A program made the translations under genes and the position numbers. Of a stretch of 33,316 nt of DNA, positions 9,260-24,026 are shown one piece after another. Positions within the stretch are counted from its first letter, which is position 1. Every line of letters begins with the position of its first letter. A model generated the notes under the pieces. That model saw only the letters and a list, made by a program, of their open reading frames with translations, made no database searches and was not told the origin of the DNA. This stretch comes from Pseudomonadota bacterium. GTDB taxonomy: Bacteria; Pseudomonadota; Alphaproteobacteria; SMXQ01. The stretch spans positions 1 to 33,316 of the forward strand of contig JACZQV010000010.1 of NCBI GenBank assembly GCA_022545545.1. Reading direction: 5' to 3'.

Positions 9260-9352
9260 AGCCGCTCTCGATAAGTCCCCCAGGCGGGCGAGATTATACG
9301 CAGCACCCCGCCTTGTCACACCCTTTGGGGCAATTACCCGTTAACTAAGCCG

Positions 9353-9366
9353 ACATTCCCCAGATG
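9353..9366 (+). repeat. IS1380 left terminal inverted repeat
   Basis: ACATTCCCCAGATG. It pairs with 10975-10988 with 2 mismatches in 14. The outer bases (CTAAGCCG) do not match the other end, so the true tip is unclear. Confidence 0.55.
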
Positions 9367-9547
9367 ACATCCAAATTCGTGGAAGTTGTACCGCCGTTCC
9401 ACCGCCAAGGGAACTGCATCCCTTCCGCAGCCATCCGAGGGTCTGATTTTGGAGATCGGTCCTCGTTTGGAAGGCCATTTGCCCAGATTTTCCGCCATTC
9501 AGACACACCCCTCCTGTCGATTTCACCTGGCCGTCGATTTCCTCGGC

Positions 9548-10897
9548 CTACGCCGGAACGGGTCTTCGTCGTAGATCATCAATCAGGCTCAGGATTTTCT
9601 GGAACAAGCTTCTCGGCACGGCAACTTCGGCCAATTGGAACGTGACGTACCGGCCATGGCGGACGACCTTGGCTCCGATCTTCACCAGTTTCTCCCGCAG
9701 TGTAGTCAGTGACCAATGCTCCACCTCCATCGGCAACGCCAGCGTCCGCATGAAGTTGGCGAGGTTGTATGCCAGGGTGTGAAGCTGGAGCCGGACCTCG
9801 TTGTTGCGGAACCCGCGGCATGACAGCCGGGTCCATTTGATCGCGTTCTTGCCTTCCTTGATGTACTGCTCCGCCGTCCCTCGGTGATTGTAGAAGGCCA
9901 CGACCCGCTCCGCCGGTCGGCTCAGGTTGGTGACAATGAAGCCGACGCGGGGATACAGTTCCCCGGGATGCCACTCCACCTTGGCGACGACCCGGCGCTT
10001 CCTGTCCCACGAGCCTGCCTGATAGCTGAAGCTGGCATGGAAGCGGCGAACATGATTCGGCGGGCGACCGACCGGACGGGAGAGCAGATGGGCGATGTTT
10101 TCTTGAAGAACCGCGTTGGCCTTGAGACGGATGGCGTACTTGTAGCCCTCGGTTTCCAGGAACTCATAGAGGTCCGGCGAGGCAAAGGCCGCATCGCCTC
10201 GGAAATAGCGCCGCAGCTTCCGATCACGATACCGGGCGACCACGGGTTCCAGAACGTCGAGCCAGCCATGAGCGCTATGGACGTTACCGGGTCGAAGCAC
10301 GCACCGCTCCAGATCGCCAAACTGGTTGAACACGAAGAGTGGATGGTAGCAGGTGCAGGCGAAGTAGCCGTTGTAGGCAGTGCCCTCCTGTTCGCCATGG
10401 GTTGGGCTGACCGAACTGTCCATGTCGAGCACGATCAGCTTCGGTGGATTGTGGTCATGAACCCGGTCGATCCAGATGCCCGAAAGGTCAGCGAGCGCGG
10501 CAAGGTTCTCGTCGGCGGCAAGAAACTCCGTCTCGAAGCGCCCCATCTGGCTGGTGGAAGCGGCCTGTTTTGCAACAGCGTGACCACCGACAACCCAGCG
10601 CATCGCCGGGTCACGTCCCAGGCGGTCGGCGTCGTTCACGTCCTCATAGCCACCGAGGCGGCCGAAGACGGACTGGCGAAACAATCCTGTCAGCGCATGC
10701 CGGCCGTTCTTGCCGGTGCGCGGGTCAACGAGACCATCGCCAACCATGTCGGTCAACCCGAGCGCGTCATCGAGTTCACGATAGGCGAGCAATCCGGCGT
10801 CGGTGGTGATCCTGGAGCCATGAAACTCGAGCTTCAGGCGGCGGTCGAAATCAAGCCGCAAAGGCTCGTTCTTAGATTCACCCGCCGGGTCCGTCAT
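9548..10897 (-). CDS. IS1380-family transposase
   Basis: A 449-residue DDE transposase. Candidate catalytic residues are D158 or D160 (VLDMDSSV), D235 (FRGDAAFA) and E343 (YNHRGTAEQYIKEGK). The C-terminal stretch GKNAIKWTRLSCRGFRNNEV, with the following LQLHTLAYNLANFMR, is characteristic of the family. The frame could open seven codons earlier, but ATG at 10895-10897 has GGAGG (10906-10910) eight bases upstream and is preferred. No frameshift or stop is seen and the catalytic triad is present, so the gene looks potentially active. It is transcribed toward the channel gene, on the same strand. Confidence 0.93.
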   Translation of the reverse strand: MTDPAGESKNEPLRLDFDRRLKLEFHGSRITTDAGLLAYRELDDALGLTDMVGDGLVDPRTGKNGRHALTGLFRQSVFGRLGGYEDVNDADRLGRDPAMRWVVGGHAVAKQAASTSQMGRFETEFLAADENLAALADLSGIWIDRVHDHNPPKLIVLDMDSSVSPTHGEQEGTAYNGYFACTCYHPLFVFNQFGDLERCVLRPGNVHSAHGWLDVLEPVVARYRDRKLRRYFRGDAAFASPDLYEFLETEGYKYAIRLKANAVLQENIAHLLSRPVGRPPNHVRRFHASFSYQAGSWDRKRRVVAKVEWHPGELYPRVGFIVTNLSRPAERVVAFYNHRGTAEQYIKEGKNAIKWTRLSCRGFRNNEVRLQLHTLAYNLANFMRTLALPMEVEHWSLTTLREKLVKIGAKVVRHGRYVTFQLAEVAVPRSLFQKILSLIDDLRRRPVPA

Positions 10898-10974
10898 CGG
10901 TCGCGCCTCCAGATGCATTCAACACATTGATTCTTGTAGCAGAATCAGTGAAAGCCCGCATCAATTGGTGGAGA

Positions 10975-10988
10975 CATCCGGGAAATGT
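10975..10988 (-). repeat. IS1380 right terminal inverted repeat
   Basis: CATCCGGGAAATGT, the partner of 9353-9366. It lies about 80 bases upstream of the transposase ATG. Confidence 0.55.
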
Positions 10989-11033
10989 GGGTTCAAACGA
11001 TCGATTGCGCGATCCGGCGGTGAAACGGGCCAA

Positions 11034-11049
11034 CCGCCAAAAATGGCGG
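11034..11049 (-). terminator. Possible hairpin downstream of the TRAP permease gene
   Basis: CCGCC-AAAAAT-GGCGG forms a 5-bp GC stem with a 6-base loop about 20 bases after the TRAP stop codon. An alternative pairing uses GGCGGT (11017-11022) with ACCGCC (11033-11038). There is no clean U-run after the stem on the minus strand, so this is a weak call. Confidence 0.3.
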
Positions 11050-11070
11050 GAATCCTGGCCTCCCGGCGCC

Positions 11071-12990
11071 TCACGCCGAGCCGCGGGGCCGCCACCGGCC
11101 CGTGGACGCCACCAGGGCGATGGCGGCAAGGGCGGCGCCGATGAGGATACCGAGAGTCCACGGCGCCAGCAGACAGCACCCGCCGACCGTCAGCAACCCC
11201 CGCGCCCACCAGGGAAGGGCGCTTCTCCAGTAACCCTCGACCGCGAGGGCCAGGCAGACGACGCCGGCGAGGGCGGTCGCGAAGGCGACGGCGATCCCGC
11301 CCGGGGAGCCGACGAGCAACAGTTCCGGCCCGTAGACGAAGGCGAATGGCACGATGAAGGCGGCCAGCGCCAGGCGCACCGCGAGGACGGCGATATGGAG
11401 CGGATTGGCCTCGGCGAGGGACGAGGCGGCGTAGGCCGCCACCGCCACCGGCGGCGTGATCGCCGACATCACCGCGTAATAGAGCAGGAACATATGGGCC
11501 GATAACACCGGCACCTCGAGATCGGCGAGCAGCGGCCCCAGCAGGACGGCGGCGAGGATATAGGCGCTCGGCGTCGGCATGCCGAGGCCGAGCACGATGG
11601 TCAGGGCGGCGGCGATGAGCAGCGAGGGGAAGAGCTGGGCTTCGGTGATGGCGTAGATCACGTGCGCGAACTTGAGCGCCAGTCCCGTCATGGTGATGCC
11701 GGCGATGACAAGCCCCGCCGCGGCGCAGGCCCCGGCCACCGGCACCATGCGATAGCTGGTCTCGGCCAGCGCCTTGAACAGCTTGACGGGCCCGACGCGC
11801 GAGTGCTTCCGCAAGCTGGCGACGGCGAGGACCGACACCGTGCCCCACACCGCCGCCATCGTCGGCGTATAACCGGCGAGCAGGAACACCGTCAGCACCA
11901 CCAGCGGCACGAAGAACAGCCCGCCACGACGCAGCGTCGTCCAAAGCCCGGGGATCTGGTCCTCGTCCAGTCGCGCCAACCCGATCTTGAGGGAGCGGAA
12001 GTGGACCTGGGCATAGACGCAGACGTAATAGAGCAGCGCCGGCAGGAGGGCGGCGATGGCGATGTCGCGATACTCGATGCCGGTATAATCGGCCATGATG
12101 AAGGCCGCCGATCCCATCACCGGGGGCACCAGGGAACCGCCCGTGGAGGCCGCGACCTCGACCGCGCCCGCCAGCGCGCGGTGATAGCCGAGCCGGCGCA
12201 TGATCGGAATGGTGATCGAGCCGGTGGTCACGACGTCGGAGGTGGGACTGCCGGAGATCATGCCGTAAAGGCCCGAGGAGACGACGGCGATCTTCGCCGG
12301 CCCCCCCGGCCGGCGGCCGCTGATCACGGCGGCGAAGTTGAAGAAGAAGTCGCTGCCGCCGGCGACGCCAAGCACGGTGCCGAAGAGGACGAACAGGAAG
12401 GCGTAGGTCGCGGCGACGCGCACCGGCAGGCCGAGGATGCCGTCGGTGGTGAACACCATGATGTCGATGAAGTGCCGATAGTCTATGTAGCCGTGCCCGA
12501 GCACGCCGCTCAACATATGGCCGAGGAAGTTGTAGGCGACGAAGATCAGCACCACGACGGTCAACCCCAGACCGGTGGTGCGCCGCGTCACCTCCAGGGT
12601 CAATAGGAAGAGCGCGGTGGCGAACAGGAGGTCCCACCCGGAAAGCGGATCGAGAAGCGAGATGCGCTCGTCGATGGCGCCGGCGTTGACGGCGAAATAG
12701 ATGCCGACGGCGACGCTTAAGCCCGCCAGCGCCCAGTCGATCTTCGATGGCCGCTCGGCATCGGAATCGGCAAAGGCGCCGACGGTAAGGAAGGCCAGCG
12801 CCAGCATGCCGCAAAGGAAAATCGCCGTAAGGGTCCAGGGAGCGATGATGATGACCGCCGCCGCCAACAGCACGTAGACGGCGATCGCCGCGGCGAACGG
12901 CGTGATCAGCCAGGCGAGCCGGCCCTTGGGCCGGCGGCGGACGCCGACCGAAAACCAGGTGGCGGGGGCGAACAGCTTCAACCGGGCCAC
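11071..12990 (-). CDS. TRAP transporter permease, DctQ-DctM fused type (4TM/12TM)
   Basis: A 639-residue inner-membrane protein with about 16 or more hydrophobic segments. The N-terminal part carries the small-subunit-like helices and the rest is DctM. Family hallmarks are SSGLYGMISGSPTSDVVTTG followed by SITIPIMRRLGY, AASTGGSLVPPVMGSAAFIM and LGLGMPTPSAYILAAVLLGP. It moves a solute by ion-coupled secondary transport, using the periplasmic binding protein encoded just upstream. Fused permeases of this kind typically pair with TAXI-type binding proteins. The start is GTG at 12988-12990 with AAGGG six bases upstream; no in-frame ATG is better placed. The substrate is unknown; TAXI systems include glutamate, succinate and 2-oxoglutarate transporters. 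Confidence 0.92.
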   Translation of the reverse strand: MARLKLFAPATWFSVGVRRRPKGRLAWLITPFAAAIAVYVLLAAAVIIIAPWTLTAIFLCGMLALAFLTVGAFADSDAERPSKIDWALAGLSVAVGIYFAVNAGAIDERISLLDPLSGWDLLFATALFLLTLEVTRRTTGLGLTVVVLIFVAYNFLGHMLSGVLGHGYIDYRHFIDIMVFTTDGILGLPVRVAATYAFLFVLFGTVLGVAGGSDFFFNFAAVISGRRPGGPAKIAVVSSGLYGMISGSPTSDVVTTGSITIPIMRRLGYHRALAGAVEVAASTGGSLVPPVMGSAAFIMADYTGIEYRDIAIAALLPALLYYVCVYAQVHFRSLKIGLARLDEDQIPGLWTTLRRGGLFFVPLVVLTVFLLAGYTPTMAAVWGTVSVLAVASLRKHSRVGPVKLFKALAETSYRMVPVAGACAAAGLVIAGITMTGLALKFAHVIYAITEAQLFPSLLIAAALTIVLGLGMPTPSAYILAAVLLGPLLADLEVPVLSAHMFLLYYAVMSAITPPVAVAAYAASSLAEANPLHIAVLAVRLALAAFIVPFAFVYGPELLLVGSPGGIAVAFATALAGVVCLALAVEGYWRSALPWWARGLLTVGGCCLLAPWTLGILIGAALAAIALVASTGRWRPRGSA

Positions 12991-13117
12991 GGCCAGCCCT
13001 TAGTACTTACTTTCATAGAAGGATAGTACATCCGGAGGTAGGTACCCGCGGCCGCCAGGCGCGGCGTCGGCGGTCCGGGATCCCCCGCTGACCGCGCCGG
13101 CGCCGCGCCTTGGCGCC

Positions 13118-14116
13118 TTACCGCAAAAGCCCGGCCTCGCGCAGATATTTCGCGGCGCCGGGATGGAACGCGACGATCGCGGGATCGGCCATCATCTGCT
13201 TGGTGACCTTTTTCTTGAGCAACCGATGCGCCGCCTTGAACTTGTCGATGTTGGTCAGGATCCCCTTGGTCAGGTTATAGGCCGTTGCTTCGTCCATGTT
13301 CTCGTTCACCAGGATGACGGTGCCGACGCAGACCGTCGTCACGTTCCGATCGAGGAACTCGTACTCTTCCGCCTTGACCAGGCAGACCTTGCCGCCCATG
13401 AAGTCCGCCACCTTCTGGACGACGCTGAACGATGTGTTCAAGAATACCGGCGTTATGCCCTTGGCGATCTCGCGCACCCGGGGATGGTTGTAGGCGATGC
13501 CGAAATGGGCCATGTCGATGCGCCTATCGAGCATCAGCGAGACGATCTCGCGCGAGGCGGCGCGCACCACCTGACCGCCCCACTTCTCGATGTTCTCGAG
13601 GCTCGCGCCCATGCCGGCCAACAACATGGCGCTGATATCGCCGTCCATGTTGCCGCGCCGGTTGATGGCAACGCGCAGCGGCGCCTTCTTGGCGACGATG
13701 TCGGAAAACGCCTTGATCCCGTGCTTGTCGGCGAAGGACTTGTTCAACAGCACATGGGTCATCTGGAAGCGGGCCGAGGCGCCGTAGGTCCTGAGCAGGA
13801 CCCGGACGTTCTTGATCGGCGCCTTGAAGGGTTTGCGTCCCATGTAGGCCGCCGTCAGCTCCATGTCGGCGGCGATGCCCATGGGCACCTTGCCGCTGGC
13901 GACCAAGGACACGTTGGCGAGACCGCCGGAGGAGGTCTGGTAGGTGATGGTGGAGCCGGGATAGGCCGCGGCCAGCGCCGCGTCGATGCCGGCGCCAATC
14001 GTCGACCACAAGCCGCCCGGGCTCGCCCCGGTAAGCGTCAAATTATAGGGCTGGGCGCCGGCCGGTCCGCCAAGGACCGCCAGCGCGCCGATAATGGCAA
14101 GAAACAATGTCCGCAT
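13118..14116 (-). CDS. TAXI-family TRAP solute-binding protein
   Basis: A 332-residue periplasmic binding protein that delivers substrate to the TRAP permease 127 bases downstream. ATG at 14114-14116 is chosen: GGGGAGG lies five bases upstream and it begins a good signal peptide (MRTLFLAIIGALAVLGGPAGA|QP). The mature start YNLTLTGASPGGLWSTIGAGI matches the TAXI pattern, in which the glycine-rich G(A/T)xxGGxW segment is typical, followed by the TYQTSSGGLANVSLVASGKV region. TAXI proteins bind ligand without the conserved Arg of DctP proteins. Its order ahead of the permease suggests one operon. The ligand is not predictable here. Confidence 0.9.
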   Translation of the reverse strand: MRTLFLAIIGALAVLGGPAGAQPYNLTLTGASPGGLWSTIGAGIDAALAAAYPGSTITYQTSSGGLANVSLVASGKVPMGIAADMELTAAYMGRKPFKAPIKNVRVLLRTYGASARFQMTHVLLNKSFADKHGIKAFSDIVAKKAPLRVAINRRGNMDGDISAMLLAGMGASLENIEKWGGQVVRAASREIVSLMLDRRIDMAHFGIAYNHPRVREIAKGITPVFLNTSFSVVQKVADFMGGKVCLVKAEEYEFLDRNVTTVCVGTVILVNENMDEATAYNLTKGILTNIDKFKAAHRLLKKKVTKQMMADPAIVAFHPGAAKYLREAGLLR

Positions 14117-14277
14117 TTTCGCCTCCCCGATGTTTATGTCTCGTCCGGACAATTTCGCAATCAAGGGCGCGATTTTGCCATGCTCCGGCGTTGAAGCAAA
14201 GCGTTGTTAGGGGGTGTCGATGGGACCAGCGATCCCGGAGACCGCGCCCGGCCGGAAAGCGATCCAATGCCGGGCGC

Positions 14278-15369
14278 TCAAGAGCCGGCGTCGTTCGGTG
14301 GTGCGGAAAGTTCGTGGACCGCCCACAGCGCCAGCGTGAAGAGCGCCAAGGCGCCGGCCTGATGGGCGGCGGCGAGGGACACGGGAACGACCAGCAACAA
14401 GGTGGCGATGCCGAGCCCCGGCTGGAGAACGGCCATGGCCAGGGTGAGGCCAAGGGCCAAGCGCGCGCGCGCCGGCAATTCGAAGCGCCGTGATATGAGC
14501 CACAAGAGGATGACCGCGGCGAGGGTGAGGATACCGAGCACGCGGTGGTCGAACTGTACGGTGGCGACGTTCTCGAAGAAATTGGCCATCGGCGGGTCGA
14601 GGAGGAAGATTTCGTCCGGCACCCATTGCCCGCCCATGAGGGGGAAGGTGTTGTAGCTGAGCCCGGCGTCAATCCCGGCCACGAAGGCGCCGGACATCAC
14701 GGTGAGGGACACCAAGGCGATGACCAAGATGGCGAAACGTTTCAACCCCGGGTTCGGCCCCGGGACCCGGGACCCGCGCGCCCGGACCCCCCGGCCGGCG
14801 GCAAGGCCGAGCGCGATCCACAGGATATAGGCGTAGATCGCGAAGGCGGCGGCAAGATGCGCCGCCAGGCGGTACTGGCTGACGGACGGGTCTTTGACCA
14901 GGCCGCTCTTGACCATGTACCAGCCGAGCCCCCCCTGGAGCGCGCCAAGCACGAAGATGATCCCCAGATGGAGGCCGAGTCGCTTGCCGATCCTCCCTGT
15001 GGCGAGGAAATAGAGGAAGGGGACGAGAAACACCAAACCGATCAGCCGGCCCCACAGACGGTGGGTGTACTCGAACCAGAAGATGAGTTTGAAATCGTCA
15101 AGCGTCATGCCGGTATTCAGCACCCAGTATTCCGGATAGCGCTGGTAATCGCGGAAGAGCTGCTGCCATTCGCCGTCGCCGAGCGGCGGCATGATGCCGA
15201 GGAGGGGTTTCCATTCGACCATGGAAAGCCCCGACTGGGTAAGCCGCGTCACCCCGCCGATCACCACCATGGCGAAGATCATGGCGCCGCAGACGAACAG
15301 CCAGATCGCGATCCGCCGGTCGGCTCCGTCGCTCGCTGCCCGGGCGCCGGCCGGTGCCGATGATGCCAA
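14278..15369 (-). CDS. ctaA: Heme A synthase (CtaA/COX15), TTG start
   Basis: A 363-residue inner-membrane enzyme that oxidises the C8 methyl of heme O to the formyl of heme A for aa3-type cytochrome oxidase. Eight hydrophobic segments are visible, with the four conserved heme-ligand histidines H103 (FEYTHRLWGR), H171 (AAHLAAAF), H275 (FDHRVLGI) and H336 (AAHQAGAL). The signature GGVTRLTQSGLSMVEWKPLL is near residues 38-57. The open frame continues far upstream, but that part is Arg/Pro/Gly-rich and not family-like. The only start that keeps the first transmembrane helix is TTG at 15367-15369, behind GAGGAG with a 7-base spacer. Other cox genes are not in the window. Confidence 0.95.
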   Translation of the reverse strand: MASSAPAGARAASDGADRRIAIWLFVCGAMIFAMVVIGGVTRLTQSGLSMVEWKPLLGIMPPLGDGEWQQLFRDYQRYPEYWVLNTGMTLDDFKLIFWFEYTHRLWGRLIGLVFLVPFLYFLATGRIGKRLGLHLGIIFVLGALQGGLGWYMVKSGLVKDPSVSQYRLAAHLAAAFAIYAYILWIALGLAAGRGVRARGSRVPGPNPGLKRFAILVIALVSLTVMSGAFVAGIDAGLSYNTFPLMGGQWVPDEIFLLDPPMANFFENVATVQFDHRVLGILTLAAVILLWLISRRFELPARARLALGLTLAMAVLQPGLGIATLLLVVPVSLAAAHQAGALALFTLALWAVHELSAPPNDAGS

Positions 15370-15655
15370 TCCTCGTCTCCTCTTCTCGACCGCCCCCGCC
15401 TGTGCGCCCGGAGCCGCTTCGCCGTGGCGAAGGCCCGACCCGTGCGGGCACCGCCTCGGCCTCCGCGTTCGATCGCGCCGGAGAGCCCGCGCCCCGCTCT
15501 CCACCGCCAGGCGATAAACACCCGAAGGCCGTGGTGAAAGGTGGTCCGGCGGGGGAACTATCGGCGTTTTCAGGACCGGGCACAAGACGCGGCTTGGGCG
15601 CGTCGGGAGGCGCCGGGCGGAACCGTCCAGGGCCGCCGGGGGGCTGAAAACCGGG
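15370..15655. other. GC-rich leader/intergenic region upstream of ctaA
   Basis: About 285 bases between the ctaA start and the AT-rich promoter pocket. The open frames here have Arg/Gly/Pro-rich composition typical of noncoding GC-rich DNA. I compared it by eye with cobalamin riboswitch and RNase P RNA consensus elements and found no match. If ctaA is transcribed from the AT-rich pocket, this would be a long 5' leader. Confidence 0.4.
15377..15382 (-). promoter_or_regulatory. Shine-Dalgarno that decides the ctaA TTG start
   Basis: GAGGAG on the minus strand, seven bases before TTG 15367-15369. The next in-frame ATG codons fall inside the first transmembrane helix, so this site fixes the start. 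Confidence 0.75.
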
Positions 15656-15709
15656 CCAATACGATATACATAATATTTTTGTGGTTTATTGAATTTCACA
15701 CAACAAACG

Positions 15710-15737
15710 TTGACAAATTATATATTCACATTATAAT
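15710..15737 (+). promoter_or_regulatory. Near-consensus sigma-70 promoter of the sulfur cluster
   Basis: TTGACA (15710-15715), a 16-base spacer, then TATAAT (15732-15737): both hexamers match consensus exactly. The surrounding 130 bases are strikingly AT-rich in a GC-rich genome. It points toward the sulfite reductase gene, whose ATG is about 52 bases beyond the -10. A strong promoter like this usually needs a repressor. Confidence 0.85.
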
Positions 15738-15757
15738 CTTGTTGTAATTGGTATTTT

Positions 15758-15772
15758 ACAGATGTTATCTGT
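15758..15772. promoter_or_regulatory. 15-bp palindrome, candidate operator or leader hairpin
   Basis: ACAGAT-GTT-ATCTGT is a perfect 6-bp inverted repeat with a 3-base centre. It lies 20 bases past the -10 hexamer and 17 bases before the ATG, where a bound repressor would block transcription. It could also act as a small mRNA hairpin near the ribosome-binding site. The regulator is unknown. Confidence 0.5.
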
Positions 15773-15789
15773 GTTAATGGAGTGACGCC

Positions 15790-17928
15790 ATGTCTGAAGT
15801 GACCGTCGAGTTTCCGGGCTCCGGGGCCGGCAACGGTGCCGGCGTGCTGGCGGCCGAGCCTCTCGCGCTCCTGACCGATATCGATGAGTTTCGCCAAGGT
15901 TACGGCAAGTTCAAGTCCGGTGAGTGGGACAATTCGAAATGGCAGCCCTTCCGGCTGCGCTACGGCGTTTACGGCCAGTTGCAGCCCGGCGTCCATATGA
16001 TACGCATCAAGTTCCCGGGCGGCATCATGGATGTCGACGGGGCGCGGGCGGTCGCCGAGGCCAACCGGCGCTGGGCCGGCGCCAAGCTCCACCTGACGAC
16101 GCGCCAAGCCATCCAAATCTACTACATCTCGCCCGACGACGCGCCCGAGGTGCTGGAGTATCTCTGCGAACGCGGCATCACCACGCGGGAGGCCTGCGGC
16201 AATTCGCTGCGCAACATGGACTCCTGCCAGTTGGCGGGGGTCTGCCCGCGCGAGCACGTCGATGCCGGCAAGGTGGCCCAGCGCCTGGCGCTGAGTTGGA
16301 TCCGCCACCCCCTGGTCCAGCACATGCCGCGCAAGTTCAAGACCACCGTCTCGGGCTGCGAGACCGACTGCGCGTCCACCCACATCCATGACCTCGGGCT
16401 GATCGCCACCAGGAAGGACGGCAAGGTCGGCTTCAAGGTGTTCGCCGGCGGCGGCACCGGCGGCATTCCGGTAAGCGCGGTCGAGGTCGCCGATTTCGTC
16501 ACAGAAGAACAACTGCCCGCCGTGGTCGAGGCGCTGGTGCGCCTCCATCAGCGCTACTCCAACCGCAAGAACCGCAACAAGGCCCGCATCAAGTTCCTGG
16601 TCAAGCGCTTCGGGGCGGAGAAATTCCGCGCCCTCTTCGAGGAGGAATTCGCGCGCGCTCTCGAGCTGCCGCAGCGTCCGTGGGAGCCGCTCGAGTGGCG
16701 CCAGCCGACGGAAGCGCCGGAGCCGATCTCCCCTGGCGGCGTCGTCGCCCAGCATGACGGCAAGGCCTGCGTCATCGTCAATCCCCCCCTTGGCCTGTTG
16801 ACGAGCGATGAGTTCGAGGCCCTGGCGGACCTGGCCGAGCGTTACGGCGCCGACAGTTTGCGCGTCACCCGCGACCAGAATCTGGCGATCACCGGGCTCG
16901 ATCCGGAGACGGTGACCGAAATTGTCGGCGTGGTGCGCGGGCTTGGATTCGGCGTCGAGGACGAACCCGGCGACGTCGCCAATGTCGTCGCCTGCCCCGG
17001 CACCTCGACTTGCGGCATCGGCATCACCAATTCGCAGAATTTCGGCAAGGAGATCCTCGATCAGGTGCAAAGCTACACCGCCAAGCCGAACCTGACGGTC
17101 AATGTTTCCGGCTGCCAGAACGGCTGCGGCCTGCATCATGTCGCCGATTTCGGCTTCCGCGGCATGGGCAAGAAGATCGGCGGCAAGAACGCGCCGCACT
17201 ATCAGATCTACTTCGGCGGCGATGCGCGCAAGAACGGCCATATCGGCCTCACCGGGCCGATCGTTCCCGCCCGCCTGGCGAAGACGGCGCTCGATTTGGT
17301 GCTCGATGGCTATGCCACCGGCAAGGTCAACGGCGAGACCGTGCGCGAATGGGCGCTCAGGCTCGGCAAGGATGGGCTCAAGGCCCTCGTCAAGCCGATA
17401 GAGGGCGAGATCGATCCCGAGAACGAAGGCCTGTTCTTCGACTTCGGCGAGGATTGGACGTTCTCCCCGCCCGCCGGCCGGACCGCCGAGTGCGCCGCCG
17501 GTTTCGAGGACGACGATCTCATGCGGGACCTGGCGGATGACGGCCTGATCAACATGGACCGGGCGCTTGCGGCCGATCGGAACGAACGGGCGTTGGTCTT
17601 CGCCCGCGAAGGTTTCCGCTATGCCGCGGAACGGCTCAGGATCCGGGTCGGGCTTCCGGGGACGGACGATGATTCGGAGGAATTGGTGATCAGCACCATC
17701 CGTGGCGCCGATGAGGATGATACCGGGGTCATCGACGCGCTCGACGGTTACCTGGAGACCCGCGTGGCGGCGGAAGCGGGCGGCGATCCCGCCCCTTACC
17801 GCGAGGCCCTCGCCCTTTGGATCGACACCGCCGCCGAGATGATGGCGCGGCCGGTGACGGTGGAAGCGTTCGATCCGACGGCGTTCGACAAGAGCGGCGG
17901 CGTCATGGACCTGATCCGCGGTAGCTGA
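15790..17928 (+). CDS. Siroheme/4Fe-4S sulfite (or nitrite) reductase hemoprotein with C-terminal extension
   Basis: A 712-residue protein with two ferredoxin-like half-domains and two siroheme/4Fe-4S domains. The cluster-siroheme cysteines are C402-x5-C408 (CPGTSTC) and C442-x3-C446 (SGCQNGCG). The N-terminal half carries the related CGNSLRNMDSCQLAGVC and VSGCETDC segments. It reduces sulfite to sulfide with six electrons, or nitrite to ammonia; the sulfur neighbours favour sulfite. Typical members are about 550-570 residues. Here about 150 more residues follow (from about 560), acidic and helical, with AREGFRYAAERLRIRVGLPG, possibly a regulatory or docking module. No flavoprotein (CysJ) gene follows, so ferredoxin is the likely donor. 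GGAG precedes ATG by seven bases. Confidence 0.9.
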   Translation: MSEVTVEFPGSGAGNGAGVLAAEPLALLTDIDEFRQGYGKFKSGEWDNSKWQPFRLRYGVYGQLQPGVHMIRIKFPGGIMDVDGARAVAEANRRWAGAKLHLTTRQAIQIYYISPDDAPEVLEYLCERGITTREACGNSLRNMDSCQLAGVCPREHVDAGKVAQRLALSWIRHPLVQHMPRKFKTTVSGCETDCASTHIHDLGLIATRKDGKVGFKVFAGGGTGGIPVSAVEVADFVTEEQLPAVVEALVRLHQRYSNRKNRNKARIKFLVKRFGAEKFRALFEEEFARALELPQRPWEPLEWRQPTEAPEPISPGGVVAQHDGKACVIVNPPLGLLTSDEFEALADLAERYGADSLRVTRDQNLAITGLDPETVTEIVGVVRGLGFGVEDEPGDVANVVACPGTSTCGIGITNSQNFGKEILDQVQSYTAKPNLTVNVSGCQNGCGLHHVADFGFRGMGKKIGGKNAPHYQIYFGGDARKNGHIGLTGPIVPARLAKTALDLVLDGYATGKVNGETVREWALRLGKDGLKALVKPIEGEIDPENEGLFFDFGEDWTFSPPAGRTAECAAGFEDDDLMRDLADDGLINMDRALAADRNERALVFAREGFRYAAERLRIRVGLPGTDDDSEELVISTIRGADEDDTGVIDALDGYLETRVAAEAGGDPAPYREALALWIDTAAEMMARPVTVEAFDPTAFDKSGGVMDLIRGS

Positions 17929-17939
17929 GCCGGCGGCCG

Positions 17940-18500
17940 ATGTATCCCGTCATCCTCGATCTCGGGCGCGTCAGCGTCGCCCTCGTCGGCAACGGCGAAG
18001 CCGCCGCCCGCCGCCTGGCGGGTCTCGACGCCGCCGGCGCCGGGGACGTCGGCGTCTTCGCCGAGGCCCCGTGTGAAGAACTAGCCCGCCTGGCCGGGGC
18101 CAGGCTCGTCCGCCGCCTGCCGAAAGCGGAAGAACTCGCCAAGGTAAAGCTCCTGCTGATCGCCGGTTTGGATCGGCGCGCCCAGGCGCCCCTCGCGACG
18201 GCGGCCCGCGCCATGGGGATCCTGGTCAATGTCGAGGACCAGAAGCCCTGGTGCGATTTTCACCTGCCGTCGGTAACCAGGCGCGGCGATCTCATGATCA
18301 CCGTCTCGACCAATGGCAAGAGCCCGGGCCTTGCCCGGCGCGTCCGCCAGTTCATCGAGCGCCGGTTCGGGCGCGAGTGGCGGGACCATCTCGATGAGCT
18401 CGCGGTGAGGCGGGAAAACTGGCGGGCGTCTGGGGCCGATGCGCCGGCGCTGCTGCGATTGACCGACGATCTGATCGCCCGCCGCGGCTGGTTGCGCTGA
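17940..18500 (+). CDS. Siroheme synthase N-terminal module: precorrin-2 dehydrogenase/sirohydrochlorin ferrochelatase (Met8/CysG-N type)
   Basis: A 186-residue bifunctional enzyme that oxidises precorrin-2 with NAD+ and inserts Fe2+ to give siroheme, the cofactor of the reductase encoded 11 bases upstream. The NAD-binding turn is VALVGNGEAAARR (residues 13-25). D100 in VNVED corresponds to the catalytic Asp of CysG (NVVD). The family block FHLPSVTRRGDLMITVSTNG, continued by KSPGLARRVR, spans about 107-136. The methyltransferase half of CysG is absent, so uroporphyrinogen must be methylated by a protein encoded elsewhere. The tight spacing implies co-transcription and perhaps translational coupling; its own ribosome-binding site is weak. 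Confidence 0.92.
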   Translation: MYPVILDLGRVSVALVGNGEAAARRLAGLDAAGAGDVGVFAEAPCEELARLAGARLVRRLPKAEELAKVKLLLIAGLDRRAQAPLATAARAMGILVNVEDQKPWCDFHLPSVTRRGDLMITVSTNGKSPGLARRVRQFIERRFGREWRDHLDELAVRRENWRASGADAPALLRLTDDLIARRGWLR

Positions 18501-18605
18501 ACCAAATAACCGCCGATATCTCGTTTAACGGCGGAACGGGCGATCCGACATCAAACGGACCCCGTGCCGCAATCTTGCGCGGCGACACTGCATAGGAGGA
18601 AACAA

Positions 18606-19568
18606 ATGCAAATTTCGAAAACTCGTACCACCGGCTTGTTGGTAGCCATGTTCGCTTTGGTTGCGGGCCCGGTAGCAAGCGTCTCGGCCCACGAGATCTG
18701 GGTCACCAACATCAAATCGGGCGATGTGACCGTCATCGATGTCTCTTCGCTCAAGGTCAAAGCCACCATCAAGACCGGCAAGGGAGCCCATAACGTCACC
18801 ATCACCCCGGACGGCAAGCAGGCCTTCGTCGCCAATGTCGGCGAAGCCACCGTGAGCATCATCGACACCCGCAAGAAAAAGGTCGTTGGGACCGTGGCGG
18901 CGGGTAAGAAGACCCATGACGTCTCGGTCTCGCCCGACCAGAAGTTGGCCGTCGCCGCCAATGTCGGCACCGACACCGTTACCCTGATCGATGTCGCCAA
19001 GAAACGACCGCTCGCGACCCTCAAGACGGCGGACGGCGCGATCATGTCGCTGTTCTCGCCCGACGGCCGGCTCCTTTATGTCGCCAATGCGCGCGCCGGC
19101 AACATTTCGGTCATCGACGTGAAGTCCCGCAAAGTTACCAAGACCCTGCCGGGCGGCAAGGGGATGATGGCGTTGGCGCCGACCCCCGGCGGGAAGCGCG
19201 CCTGGCTGACGGCGCCGGGCAGCAACCAGCTCATCCTCCTCGACCTGATCAAGGCCGAGAACGTCGCGGTCGTCGACGTTGCCGGCCAGCCCCACGGACT
19301 GGCCTTGAGCCCGGATGGCAAGAAGGCTTACCTGGTGCAGCGAAAGTTGAACCAGATTTCGATCATTGACACGGCGTCGCGCAAGATCATCAAGAGCGCA
19401 AAGGTCGGCAAGCGCCCGGACATGCTTGCCATCAGTCCCGATGGAAAGACCCTCTATGTGACGAGCCGTGACGAGGATAAGCTGCTGGTGGTCTCGGCGG
19501 CGAGCCTGAAGGTCAAGGCGGAAGTGGCGACGGGTAAAGAACCCCATGGGGTGGCGTATCGCAAATAG
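18606..19568 (+). CDS. Secreted YVTN-family beta-propeller protein
   Basis: About 320 residues. ATG at 18606 is chosen over an in-frame ATG 14 codons earlier because AGGAGG lies six bases upstream and a signal peptide follows (LLVAMFALVAGPVASVSA|HE). The mature chain is a run of about seven blades, each with the pattern LxVxNxxxxxVSxIDxxxxKVxxTIxxGxxP plus (S/T)PDGKxxxVAN. This is the YVTN/cytochrome-d1-like propeller. No heme-binding motif is seen. Such proteins are periplasmic or surface-exposed and mostly of unknown role. Its place between siroheme synthase and a sulfur transporter suggests a periplasmic part in sulfur handling, but that is inference. A 105-base gap could hold a second promoter. 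Confidence 0.88.
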   Translation: MQISKTRTTGLLVAMFALVAGPVASVSAHEIWVTNIKSGDVTVIDVSSLKVKATIKTGKGAHNVTITPDGKQAFVANVGEATVSIIDTRKKKVVGTVAAGKKTHDVSVSPDQKLAVAANVGTDTVTLIDVAKKRPLATLKTADGAIMSLFSPDGRLLYVANARAGNISVIDVKSRKVTKTLPGGKGMMALAPTPGGKRAWLTAPGSNQLILLDLIKAENVAVVDVAGQPHGLALSPDGKKAYLVQRKLNQISIIDTASRKIIKSAKVGKRPDMLAISPDGKTLYVTSRDEDKLLVVSAASLKVKAEVATGKEPHGVAYRK

Positions 19569-19634
19569 TAGCGCGCCTGGCGCGATCGACGGCGTCCCGA
19601 TACCCTCCTTGGGGCGGCGAAGGGGCAAGGGCGG

Positions 19635-20822
19635 ATGAGCGTATCGTTCGTGGACGGGACGGCGCCGGCCCGTCCGCCGGCCCAGCTCCTGGTCGCCGGA
19701 TCGGGGCTTTTGGCGCTCACGCTTGGCGCCGTTTACCTTGGCGGCGACGGTTGGCGGCAGGCCGCGCTCTTCATCATCGGCGGGCTGCTCGGCGTCAGCC
19801 TCTATCACGCCGCCTTCGGTTTCACTTCCGCCTACCGCAAGCTCTTCCTCAGCCGCGACGTCGCCGGCGTGACCGCCCAGTTGGTCATGCTCGCCGTCGC
19901 CATGGTCCTGTTCGCCCCTGTCTTGGCCGAAGGCGAGGCCTTCGGCCAAGGCGTGGTCGGGGCGGTGGCGCCGCTTGGTGTGTCGGTGGCGGTCGGAAGC
20001 TTCCTCTTCGGCCTCGGCATGCAGCTCGCCGGCGGCTGCGGGTCGGGCACGCTCTATACCGTCGGCGGCGGTAGCACGCGCATGGTGGTCACCCTCGTAG
20101 CCTTTTGCGCCGGCGGCTTCTGGGGCAGCCTCGATCTTGCCTTCTGGTCGGGCCTGGGGGATTGGGGAAGCATATCGCTGGCGCGGGAGACCGGCTGGGG
20201 GGCCGCGCTCGCCCTGCAATTCGCCGTCCTGCTTGCTCTCTGGCTCGGTCTTCGCGCCTGCTCTCGCGGCGCCGCGCAAAGCCCGCTCTGGACCCGCGGA
20301 TTCGGTTGGCGGGACGTGCTCGCCGGCCCCTGGCCGCTGCTGCTTGGCGCCGGACTTTTGGCGCTGCTCAACTGGGCCACCCTGGTGGTCGCCGGCCATC
20401 CCTGGTCGATCACCTGGGCCTTCACGCTGTGGGCGGCCAAGATCGCGGCGGCGCTCGGCTGGGATCCCGCCACCAGCCCGTTCTGGACCGCGCCCTTCCC
20501 CCGTGGCGCGCTCGGCGCCAGCGTCTTTGACGACGTCACCTCGGTGATGAATTTCGGCATCATCATCGGCGCCTTGACCGCCGCCGGGCTGGCCGGCCGC
20601 TTCCGGCCCGCCGCCGGGGTGCCTTTGCTGTCGCTCGCCGCCGCGCTCACCGGTGGGCTTCTCATGGGTTACGGCGCGCGTCTGGCGTTCGGCTGCAATA
20701 TCGGGGCGTTTTTCTCCGGCGTGGCGTCGACCAGTTTGCACGGATGGCTGTGGATCGTCTGTGCGCTGGTAGGCACCTGGGCCGGCGTGCACCTGCGCCC
20801 GTTGTTCGGTCTCAGGAACTGA
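19635..20822 (+). CDS. YeeE/YedE-family (TsuA-like) sulfur-compound transporter
   Basis: A 395-residue inner-membrane protein with about ten hydrophobic segments in two similar halves. The two family motifs are GMQLAGGCGSGTLYTVGGGS (C135) and YGARLAFGCNIGAFFSGVAS (C354). In E. coli TsuA equivalent cysteines relay thiosulfate across the membrane. Thiosulfate or a related reduced sulfur compound is therefore a sensible substrate, in line with the sulfite reductase and siroheme genes upstream. No TusA-like sulfur carrier gene is adjacent, although TsuA is often paired with one. AAGGGC lies just before ATG. Confidence 0.88.
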   Translation: MSVSFVDGTAPARPPAQLLVAGSGLLALTLGAVYLGGDGWRQAALFIIGGLLGVSLYHAAFGFTSAYRKLFLSRDVAGVTAQLVMLAVAMVLFAPVLAEGEAFGQGVVGAVAPLGVSVAVGSFLFGLGMQLAGGCGSGTLYTVGGGSTRMVVTLVAFCAGGFWGSLDLAFWSGLGDWGSISLARETGWGAALALQFAVLLALWLGLRACSRGAAQSPLWTRGFGWRDVLAGPWPLLLGAGLLALLNWATLVVAGHPWSITWAFTLWAAKIAAALGWDPATSPFWTAPFPRGALGASVFDDVTSVMNFGIIIGALTAAGLAGRFRPAAGVPLLSLAAALTGGLLMGYGARLAFGCNIGAFFSGVASTSLHGWLWIVCALVGTWAGVHLRPLFGLRN

Positions 20823-21127
20823 TCGCGGAGGATTGTATTGACAGTGGACGGGGACGATATACAAGCTTATACAACGACGAAACGGCGGATTCCGCCCAGC
20901 CTTTGGGCACATTTGAAGCCGAGGGACGAAGCAAGCTCTCAGATAGCGTCAAACAGACGGACGGACCGGGTCTTGGGCGATGGGGTGAATGGTGGGCCTC
21001 GTCCGCGCCCAGGCTTGCCGGGAGACCACGTCGGTAGGTTTAGAACCTGTTAGGAAAGTTCGAGTTATTAGCGGTTAGGAGAGCTTGAGGACCATGGACG
21101 CAAGTTCGGTCGGAGAGTCTTAGGGCC
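20823..21127 (+). other. Intergenic region before korA
   Basis: About 305 bases without a convincing gene; the short frames here show no domain and lack a good start. TTGACA at 20838-20843 is followed by TATACA at 20858-20863, but the 14-base spacer is too short for a good promoter. Near 21050-21120 TTAGG occurs three times (GTTAGGAAAG, GGTTAGGAGAG, CTTAGGGCC), function unknown. A short frame at 21094 (ATG to TAG, nine codons) could be a leader peptide but has no support. Confidence 0.4.
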
Positions 21128-22996
21128 ATGGCAGGAAATGCCGCGATAGACTTGACCAGTCCTCCCCGCCAGGAGGTCGAGAGCGTCGTCATCCGTTTCG
21201 CCGGCGATTCAGGTGACGGCATCCAGATGACCGGGGGGCGCTTCACCGATGTCACCGCCCTTGCCGGCAATGACCTCGCCACTTTTCCCGATTTCCCCGC
21301 CGAAATCCGCGCGCCGGCCGGGACCACCTACGGTGTTTCCGCCTTCCAGATCAATTTCGGCGCCCGCAATATCAAGACCTCGGGCGACGCGCCCGATGCC
21401 CTCATCGCGCTGAACGCGGCGGCGTTGGCGGTCGAAATCCGGGATCTCAAGCCGGGTGGAGTGGTGATCGTCAATACCGGCGGTTTGGCGGAGAGGAACC
21501 TGCGCAAGGCCGGGCTCGAGGGAAATCCGATCGAGGACGGGACGCTGAGCAATTTCCGCGTCATCGCCATCGACATTTCGAAGCTGACGCTGGAGGCGGT
21601 CAAGAACAGCGGGCTGAACAAGAAGGACGCGCTGCGCTGCAAGAATTTGTGGACCCTCGGCCTGGTCTACTGGATGTACGACCGCGACCGGCAGCCGACC
21701 ATCGATTGGCTCAACAAGCGGTTCGCCAGTCACCCCGAACTCGCCGCCGCCAACGTCGCCGCGCTGAACGCCGGGCACGCCTTCGGCGAGACCGCCGAAT
21801 TGGCGGACGGCATTACGCCTTACACCGTCGCTCCCTCCCATTTCGCGCCGGGAGAGTACCGTACCGTCCATGGCGCCGAGGCGATGGCCTGGGGCCTGAT
21901 GGTGGGGGCTCGCCTCGCCGGGCTCGATCTCGTCTTCTCCTCCTACCCCATCACCCCGGCGTCGGGCGTGTTGCATGCCTTGGCTAAGCTGAAACATTTC
22001 GGCGTCACCACCTTCCAGGCGGAGGACGAGATCGCCGCCATCTGCGCCGCCATCGGCGCGTCTTTCGCCGGCTCGCTCGGCGTGACGTCGAGCTCGGGCC
22101 CGGGCATGGCGCTCAAGACCGAGGCGCTGGGACTGGCGATCAGCGCCGAGTTGCCGCTGGTGGTGATAAACTCCCAACGCGCCGGGCCTTCCACCGGCAT
22201 GCCGACGAAGACCGAACAATCGGATCTCTATCAGGCGGTCTTTGGCCGTAACGGCGACAGCCCATTGGCGGTGCTGGCGGCGCGTTCGCCGTCGGATTGC
22301 TTCGACGTGGTGATCGAGGCGGTGCGAATCGCCACCAAATACATGACTCCGGTGATCGTGCTGGCGGACACCTATATCGCTAACGCGGCCGAGCCGTGGC
22401 TGATCCCGAACGTAGACGAGCTGACCCCTTTCCCGGTCGAGTTCCGTACCGAACCCGAGGGCTTCCATCCCTACCTTCGCGACGAACGGACCCTGGGCCG
22501 GGCGTGGGCGGTCCCCGGCACGCCGGGGTTGGAGCACCGCATCGGCGCCCTGGAGAAGGATTACGATACCGGCAATATCTCCTACGACCCGGCCAACCAC
22601 CAGCGCATGACCGACGCGCGCGGCGCCAAGATCTCCGGCATCGCCGACGATATACCGCTCCAGGCGGTGGAGGCGGGCGAGGAGAGCGGGCGGCTCTGCG
22701 TCGTCGGCTGGGGGTCTAGCTACGGGCCCATCGCCCGCGCGGTGGGCAACCTGCGCGAGGAAGGGCACTTGGTCTCCCACATCCACCTCCGGCACATCTG
22801 GCCGTTGCCCCGCAACCTGGTGCGCCTGCTCCGGGGATTCGACAAGATTCTCGTGCCGGAGATGAATACGGGTCAATTGCTGACCCTGCTGAGGGCCGAG
22901 GCCCTGGTGCCCGCCGAAGGACTCAGTAGCGTCACCGGCAAGCCCTTCAGGATCAGCGAGATCGAGGAGGCGATCCGCCTCCGCCTGGGAGGGTGA
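21128..22996 (+). CDS. korA: 2-oxoacid (2-oxoglutarate):ferredoxin oxidoreductase, fused gamma-alpha subunit
   Basis: A 622-residue subunit. Residues 1-200 are the gamma domain (VVIRFAGDSGDGIQMTGGRF), and the rest is the alpha pyrimidine-binding domain with the conserved YPITP motif at 273-277 (SSYPITPASGVLHAL) and the SSGPGMALKTEALGLAISAE loop. With KorB it oxidises a 2-oxoacid plus CoA to acyl-CoA and CO2 and reduces ferredoxin. The fused form is usual for two-subunit enzymes of aerobic and microaerobic bacteria, where 2-oxoglutarate is the common substrate. Pyruvate or branched-chain 2-oxoacids cannot be excluded. The start at 21128 has only a weak ribosome-binding site; an ATG at 21094 stops after nine codons. 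Confidence 0.93.
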   Translation: MAGNAAIDLTSPPRQEVESVVIRFAGDSGDGIQMTGGRFTDVTALAGNDLATFPDFPAEIRAPAGTTYGVSAFQINFGARNIKTSGDAPDALIALNAAALAVEIRDLKPGGVVIVNTGGLAERNLRKAGLEGNPIEDGTLSNFRVIAIDISKLTLEAVKNSGLNKKDALRCKNLWTLGLVYWMYDRDRQPTIDWLNKRFASHPELAAANVAALNAGHAFGETAELADGITPYTVAPSHFAPGEYRTVHGAEAMAWGLMVGARLAGLDLVFSSYPITPASGVLHALAKLKHFGVTTFQAEDEIAAICAAIGASFAGSLGVTSSSGPGMALKTEALGLAISAELPLVVINSQRAGPSTGMPTKTEQSDLYQAVFGRNGDSPLAVLAARSPSDCFDVVIEAVRIATKYMTPVIVLADTYIANAAEPWLIPNVDELTPFPVEFRTEPEGFHPYLRDERTLGRAWAVPGTPGLEHRIGALEKDYDTGNISYDPANHQRMTDARGAKISGIADDIPLQAVEAGEESGRLCVVGWGSSYGPIARAVGNLREEGHLVSHIHLRHIWPLPRNLVRLLRGFDKILVPEMNTGQLLTLLRAEALVPAEGLSSVTGKPFRISEIEEAIRLRLGG

Positions 22997-22997
22997 G

Positions 22998-24026
22998 ATG
23001 ACCGTCGAGACAATGGAACCAAATCTGACGCCGAAGGACTTCGCCTCCGATCAGGAGGTCCGCTGGTGCCCCGGCTGCGGTGATTACGCCATTCTCAAGG
23101 CGGTCTATAAGACCCTGGCCGATATCGCCGTCCCCAAGTCCGATGTCGTCTTCGTCTCCGGGATCGGCTGTGCGTCCCGCTTTCCCTATCACGTCTCGAG
23201 TTACGGCTTCCACACCATCCATGGGCGGGCCCCGTCGGTCGCCACCGGGATCAAGCTGGCCAATCCGGACTTGAGCGTCTGGGTCGTCACCGGTGACGGC
23301 GACGGGCTGTCGATCGGCGGCAATCATATGCTGCACGTGCTGCGCCGCAATGTCGATCTGCAGATCCTGCTGTTCAATAACGAGACCTATGGGCTGACCA
23401 AGGGACAGTATTCGCCGACCTCGAGGGTGGGGACGGTGTCGCCGTCGACGCCGATGGGCTCGGTCGACTACCCGGTCTCTCCGGTGGCCTTCGCGCTCGG
23501 CTCGGGCGCCCGCTTCGCCGCCCGTTCGGTCGACACCATGCAGCGGCACCTGCCGGTGGTGTTGAAGCGCGCCCATGAACACCGCGGCGCCTCTTTCGTC
23601 GAGATTTTCCAGAACTGCATCGTCTATAACGACGGCGCCTTCGACGACTTCACCGAAAAGGCAGTGGTGGACGACACCCAGATCCACCTCGAGCACGCCA
23701 AGCCCCTTATCTTCGGCAAGGAGGGGGAAGAGCGGGGCATCAGGCTCAAGCCCGGCGTGATCGAGCTCGAAGTGGTGCGCTTGGGCGAGGGCGGCATCGG
23801 GATTAAGGATCTGCTCGTCCATGACGAGACCAACCGGTCGCTCGCCGTCATGCTGGCGGCGATGGCGCCGCCCGATTTCCCGATGGCGCTCGGCGTCCTC
23901 TATTGCGACCCGGCGCCGGGCTACGAAACCCTGGTCAGGGATCAGATCGAGGAAGCCAAGGCCCGGACCCCCAACGGCGATCTCAACGCCCTCTTGCGCG
24001 AAGGCTACACCTGGACCGTCGGTTAA
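22998..24026 (+). CDS. korB: 2-oxoacid (2-oxoglutarate):ferredoxin oxidoreductase, beta subunit
   Basis: A 342-residue thiamine-diphosphate subunit. The TPP motif is GDGDGLSIGGNH (residues 99-110) followed by NNETYGLTKGQYSPTS. Cysteines C24 and C27 (WCPGCGDY), C58 (GIGCASR) and C207 (FQNCIVYND) have the spacing of the 4Fe-4S ligands in two-subunit archaeal-type enzymes. It starts one base after the korA stop codon (TGA-G-ATG) with GGGAGGG just before, so translation is coupled. The cluster passes electrons one at a time to ferredoxin. No ferredoxin gene is in the window. Confidence 0.94.
   Translation: MTVETMEPNLTPKDFASDQEVRWCPGCGDYAILKAVYKTLADIAVPKSDVVFVSGIGCASRFPYHVSSYGFHTIHGRAPSVATGIKLANPDLSVWVVTGDGDGLSIGGNHMLHVLRRNVDLQILLFNNETYGLTKGQYSPTSRVGTVSPSTPMGSVDYPVSPVAFALGSGARFAARSVDTMQRHLPVVLKRAHEHRGASFVEIFQNCIVYNDGAFDDFTEKAVVDDTQIHLEHAKPLIFGKEGEERGIRLKPGVIELEVVRLGEGGIGIKDLLVHDETNRSLAVMLAAMAPPDFPMALGVLYCDPAPGYETLVRDQIEEAKARTPNGDLNALLREGYTWTVG

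Follow-up and report, generated by a model that had tools for sequence, protein, structure and literature searches.

Phased ACA-N9-TGT boxes on the promoter of an alphaproteobacterial sulfite reductase gene and a candidate Rrf2 repressor that may dock to CysK

Which regulator reads the DNA in front of the cysI-type sulfite reductase gene of this alphaproteobacterium, where a consensus promoter lies in an AT-rich pocket? The window, that is the whole stretch of 33,316 nucleotides that was analysed, has a GC content of 65-80% in 100-bp intervals from 15300 to 15599, against 27% at 15650 and 31% at 15700. The first-pass annotation had reported a TTGACA-N16-TATAAT promoter and a downstream palindrome in this pocket, and both are present there (Table 1). 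The promoter matches the consensus at 12 of 12 positions and is the only such match on either strand of 8000-24000, a region with four promoter-like sites of at least 9/12 (2.1 ± 1.8 in shuffles). The −35 pattern TTGAC[ACT] occurs in 20 of 30 upstream regions, compared with a mean of 5.6 and a maximum of 8 in block shuffles. A strong sigma-70-type promoter lying under operator-like boxes, 5′ of a sulfite reductase gene and amid sulfur genes, is supported.

The downstream genes encode proteins of the CysG N-terminal, YncE and YeeE/YedE types. Against NCBIfam, every match of the sulfite reductase itself stays below its cut-off; a C-terminal extension of about 170 residues (about 540-712) runs past the SIR domains and has no Pfam match. 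Neither the window's genome (G000) nor its sister (G001) showed a PAPS-reductase-family gene (cysH or cysD), so sulfite in both probably does not come from sulfate; it may come from organic sulfur or thiosulfate.

Table 1. Features of the window around the sulfite reductase promoter
Feature	Position	Strand	Basis
DDE transposase (DDE_Tnp_1_4)	9548-10918	−	profile search
ctaA (heme A synthase), divergent neighbour	14278-15363	−	profile search
Box 1, ACATAATATTTTTGT, ACA-N9-TGT	15668-15682	.	place and arms the same in L034
Box 2, ACACAACAAACGTTG, one arm mismatch	15698-15712	.	arrangement the same in L033, L034, L037
−35 element TTGACA	15710-15715	+	consensus scan; TTGAC[ACT] in 20 of 30 upstream regions
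Box 3, ACATTATAATCTTGT, contains the −10 element	15728-15742	.	pattern and spacing counts
−10 element TATAAT	15732-15737	+	consensus scan
Box 4, ACAGATGTTATCTGT, palindrome of the first-pass annotation	15758-15772	.	pattern scans of window and assembly
Likely ribosome-binding site GGAG	15779-15782	+	by eye from sequence
cysI-type sulfite reductase, 712 aa	15790-17928	+	NIR_SIR 7.5e-56, NIR_SIR_ferr
CysG N-terminal (precorrin-2 dehydrogenase) type protein	17940-18500	+	profile searches
YncE-type beta-propeller	18564-19568	+	profile searches
YeeE/YedE-type sulfur transporter	19635-20822	+	Sulf_transp 1.7e-63

The palindrome turned out to be the last of four copies of a 15-bp box, ACA-N9-TGT, that starts every 30 bp across the pocket. 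The last three bases of box 2 (TTG) are the first three of the −35 element. Because the cores of the boxes differ, the array is invisible to a finder of direct and inverted repeats, which returned no repeats in the pocket. When up to three mismatches were allowed, ACAGATGTTATCTGT had a single site in the window, read on both strands (0.15 expected), and ACAGATNNNATCTGT occurs once in the 2.75-Mb assembly. In the sister species (L034), whose sulfite reductase is 91% identical, all four boxes are as far from the start codon as in the window. The palindrome is real, but its exact inverted repeat is not the conserved unit: L034 carries ACAAAGAATAACTGT at box 4, which leaves ACA-N9-TGT as the only part in common, and conservation of the box over the −10 element is just as good. 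Three boxes at 30-bp spacing were found in L033 and two exact boxes each in L036 and L049.

Across 32 segments upstream of cysI-type genes, among them one (L009) taken in the wrong orientation and holding no box, ACA-N9-TGT occurs 26 times, compared with 1.8 ± 1.4 in shuffles. Because counts for arm gaps of N8 (10) and N10 (8) are raised too, as is N6 (6), with shuffles giving about 1.3-1.5 each, the N9 gap is not exclusive. The AT-rich DNA before cysI holds 29 boxes in 6,073 bases, whereas the remaining AT-rich DNA of these 30 records holds 5 in 23,390 (4.78 vs 0.21 per kb); in records of at least 55% GC, the counts are 22 in 3,034 bases and 1 in 3,008. Box-to-box distances are raised at 29-32 and 60-62 bp, with 30 bp at the top (8 vs 0.2), and distances of 16, 27, 39 and 66 bp, with 1-3 counts, also pass the over-representation mark. 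Pairs at exactly 30 bp with up to two mismatches were found in 9 of 30 upstream regions, every one of them in a genome that carries the rrf2-cysK gene pair described below.

The annotation had proposed a search for the palindrome before other sulfur genes. The exact palindrome precedes no other gene of the genome, but the looser box does precede sulfur genes of relatives. PAPS-reductase-family genes occur in 6 of the 11 genomes of the family, and their upstream regions, which played no part in deriving the motif, form a test set. Five of these six cysH loci have a box pair 30-32 bp apart with up to two arm mismatches, a number that none of 300 block shuffles reached (mean 0.18 loci); with up to three mismatches, all six do, compared with 1.4 in shuffles. 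Further pairs, chosen by eye, lie in genome G006 before a rhodanese gene and before a CysA-like ABC gene that is accompanied by a binding protein and whose CysA C-terminal domain falls just below the cut-off. In G002 and G006 (L086 and L088, about 3.9-4.2 kb), pairs also chosen by eye sit in the gap that separates a 1-Cys peroxiredoxin gene from a DUF1178 gene, and DUF1178 may belong to the sulfur response. The window's genome has a single further AT-rich candidate, before a RimK-like ATP-grasp gene (C178:6502, L084), and this near-box pair is conserved in G001 (C102:16645, L085). A Pfam search with the ATP-grasp-like gene gave no match.

Searched genome-wide, the two-box pattern gave 6 matches vs 2 for the reversed control in the window's genome and 44 vs 38 in 13 relatives, and the one-box pattern gave 60 vs 51 in 11 genomes (the latter two comparisons summed by hand). 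In a class-wide search, the two-box pattern without mismatch occurred in 42 of 385 genomes, compared with about 32 for the reversed control, and most of the listed matches look like chance. Because these counts lie near the control, the motif alone cannot list targets, and AT content and position guided the choice of matches at genes other than cysI and cysH.

Shared control of ctaA by the same pocket, which the annotation had also suggested, is not supported by the arrangement: the array lies directly 5′ of cysI, with the ctaA start about 290 bp away. Moreover, ctaA is a neighbour in 10 of 29 relatives, in two of which (L037 and L049) it is more than 1 kb away, and the array follows the cysI start. 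The minus-strand TTGTCA suggested to serve ctaA exists, but by eye only TTCAAT follows 17 bp on, and the minus-strand 9/12 site GTGAAA-N18-TATTAT at 15699-15670 is at chance level. The array probably does not control ctaA.

A candidate reader is encoded elsewhere in the genome. Rrf2 proteins occur in all 11 genomes of the family, and one group of them is encoded directly 5′ of cysK; in 27 of 30 loci the gene after rrf2 is cysK. The member from the window's genome (C102:3834-4286, P0004) scores 102.1 bits against the Rrf2 domain model TIGR00738, above the cut-off of 73.3, and stays below the cut-offs of the named regulators: CymR (NF047409, equivalog, 62.9 of 195 bits), IscR (TIGR02010, 82.6 of 207.55; NF008110, 86 of 275) and RirA (NF008886, 33.2 of 193). 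Its nearest solved structures are IscR (2.5e-22) and CymR (8.8e-12). The Fe-S cysteines of IscR are absent, since a single Cys is present in 22 of the 25 distinct sequences and two in the other three; C131, near the C-terminus, is the only Cys invariant in the 25 sequences (L229-L255) and may sense redox state or persulfide. In a plasmid collection, the protein retrieved 28 records, all below 60% identity and mostly IscR. CysB was rejected as reader of the boxes: the CysB-like LysR protein from L059, used as query, found nothing above 28% identity in the 11 family genomes.

The C-terminal tail of this Rrf2 group is constant: each of the 27 complete copies (25 distinct) closes with [LM]DF[TSIV]I, that is D-F-x-I, and the alignment of 25 sequences shows no change at D148, F149 or I151, behind a variable linker. 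A C-terminal Ile is missing from all 24 complete CysE proteins read in these genomes (four of 28 loci had no motif match, and L299-L300 were left out) and from all 21 other Rrf2 proteins (three of 24 control loci were not matched). The CysK loop PTSGNTG was matched by pattern in 22 of 27 loci, with five unmatched. According to the cited text of PMC5562914, the C-terminal Ile of CysE inserts into CysK, and O-acetylserine dissociates the complex. PMC12895370, in the portion cited, states that other CysK partners dock by the same tail trick, names CymR among them and describes CysE proteins of P. aeruginosa without a C-terminal Ile.

An orthologue of this Rrf2 protein was found in 23 of 29 genomes with relatives of the sulfite reductase, the L033 copy being cut by a contig end, and was not found in L038, L039, L051, L054, L057, L059 or G009. 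A box scoring at least 9 lies within 450 bp in 20 of 24 carriers of rrf2-cysK vs 2 of 6 non-carriers (L051 and L054), a co-occurrence (Fisher p 0.03) that is partly circular, with training boxes supplied by 13 of the 24 carriers, and confounded by kinship. Seven of the 11 carriers outside the training set reach a score of 9, and the block-shuffle p is at most 0.02 only for L041, L052 and L056. Four of the 24 carriers have no good box; L044 and L046 carry rrf2-cysK and no box. At L044, a regulator that looks Lrp/AsnC-like by eye (355-870) is encoded divergently to the sulfite reductase, with no box there, and is perhaps a replacement regulator.

The array probably binds a cysteine-sensing repressor, for which the cysteine-making enzyme would act as the gauge of sulfur supply. 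We consider it reasonably likely that this reader is the Rrf2 protein encoded before cysK, acting as a CysK-docked and O-acetylserine-released repressor of the sigma-70-type cysI promoter. The main inferred step, from Rrf2 to the boxes, draws on gene context, the tail and the rough co-occurrence. Because 30 bp is about three helical turns, all four boxes would face much the same side of the helix; a dimeric repressor bound to operators at the start of the −35 element, over the −10 element, just downstream and upstream would shut RNA polymerase out. Boxes over −35, −10 and downstream argue for repression by polymerase exclusion, as at the sites of the Rrf2-type IscR in Rhodobacter, which overlap −35/−10 in the account that PMC4618611 gives in its cited part. 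In the crystal of a related Rrf2-operator complex, as the cited section of PMC9338935 describes it, the central 7 bp have no base-specific contact, which suits the conserved arms and loose AT core of the boxes.

As the CysE tail does in other bacteria, the D-F-x-I tail would insert into the CysK active site. With plentiful sulfide, O-acetylserine would be low, the Rrf2-CysK complex would stand and the cys promoters would be repressed; with sulfide short, O-acetylserine would build up as the signal, displace the tail and derepress the genes. For Bacillus, PMC2940859, PMC4961446 and PMC9338935 report, in the parts cited, that CysK stabilises CymR on DNA and that the signal is O-acetylserine. We put forward more tentatively, at somewhat short of an even chance, the wider proposal that, in this alphaproteobacterial lineage, the tail that docks to CysK was transferred from CysE to a transcription factor. 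CysE would no longer form a cysteine synthase complex, CysK would be the O-acetylserine sensor of the dedicated Rrf2 repressor encoded beside it, and this repressor would bind the phased ACA-N9-TGT arrays at cys promoters.

The array might instead be a true sulfur operator that is read by a LysR-type or uncharacterised repressor, with Rrf2-CysK acting elsewhere. A 15-bp dyad at 30-bp spacing also suits LysR tetramers, and LysR proteins occur in 11 of 11 family genomes. This reading also draws on the rrf2-cysK loci themselves, in which a scan found no box and thus no sign of autoregulation, and on G009, a draft genome at 90% completeness with boxes before cysH, in which the Rrf2 orthologue was not found. 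However, no LysR protein was seen by eye beside the operons in the family loci, coverage of −35, −10 and downstream sequence fits a repressor better than a LysR activator, and the CysK link and the tail are features of Rrf2; we regard a different reader as unlikely, though as the most serious competitor.

Less probable still, at about one chance in ten by our judgement, is an IscR-like paralogue that is encoded beside cysE and would tie sulfur assimilation to Fe-S supply. Its gene is present in the family, by eye between cysE and a cysteine desulfurase gene, and AT-rich palindromes are the usual operators of Rrf2 proteins, but the AT-rich ACA-N9-TGT box was not seen in its loci (L169-L178) and its tail lacks the CysK-docking Ile. 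That the pocket is only an ordinary AT-rich promoter, with boxes as by-products of composition, would agree with the overlap of boxes 2 and 3 with the −35 and −10 elements and with the genome-wide counts near the reversed control. It is nevertheless very improbable: the cysH pairs do not arise in block shuffles, which preserve local composition, boxes are 23 times sparser in the other AT-rich DNA of these records, and boxes 1 and 4 keep the register outside the promoter elements.

How sulfur assimilation is controlled in these alphaproteobacteria, in which no CysB orthologue was found here, is not described in the open papers searched, and no study of an alphaproteobacterial rrf2-cysK pair was found in the open-access literature. 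Like the system proposed here, the gammaproteobacterial CysB regulon includes sulfite reductase and the assimilation of sulfate. A LysR gene, CysB-like by eye, is divergent to cysI in L059, a gammaproteobacterial locus, and it is this protein that lacks a close match in the family. NrdR, ArsR and MarR proteins were also considered as readers; paired boxes about 31-32 bp apart are known for NrdR before ribonucleotide reductase genes, and the targets found here are sulfur genes. The RirA box is TGA-N9-TCA. With IscR, the Iron-Rhodo-box and RirA of alphaproteobacteria, the proposed system shares the Rrf2 fold and palindromic operators over −35/−10 (PMC4618611, in the part cited); it differs in having no three-Cys cluster site, other operator letters and sulfur rather than iron genes. 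As in CysE-CysK and CdiA-CT-CysK (PMC5562914 and PMC12895370, as far as their cited text goes), a C-terminal Ile tail appears aimed at CysK, but here a transcription factor carries it, and none of the 24 CysE proteins read does.

The closest parallel is CymR-CysK of Bacillus subtilis and Staphylococcus aureus, in which an Rrf2 protein without the three IscR cysteines targets sulfur and cysteine genes and CysK is the partner, as it probably is here; CymR, too, has a C-terminal Ile peptide according to the cited portion of PMC12895370. Unlike CymR, the present protein stays below the equivalog cut-off, is encoded directly before cysK and belongs to an alphaproteobacterial host, its candidate operator is ACA-N9-TGT in 30-bp arrays, and the CysE set checked has no C-terminal Ile. 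The logic is known from CymR-CysK; absent from the open papers searched were the operator with its phased array, the rrf2-cysK pair and a tail on the regulator rather than on CysE. This reading yields a named operator, a candidate repressor and a last isoleucine as a one-residue test point; if it is true, the CysK trigger-enzyme logic of Bacillus extends to alphaproteobacteria, with the docking tail on the regulator instead of on CysE.
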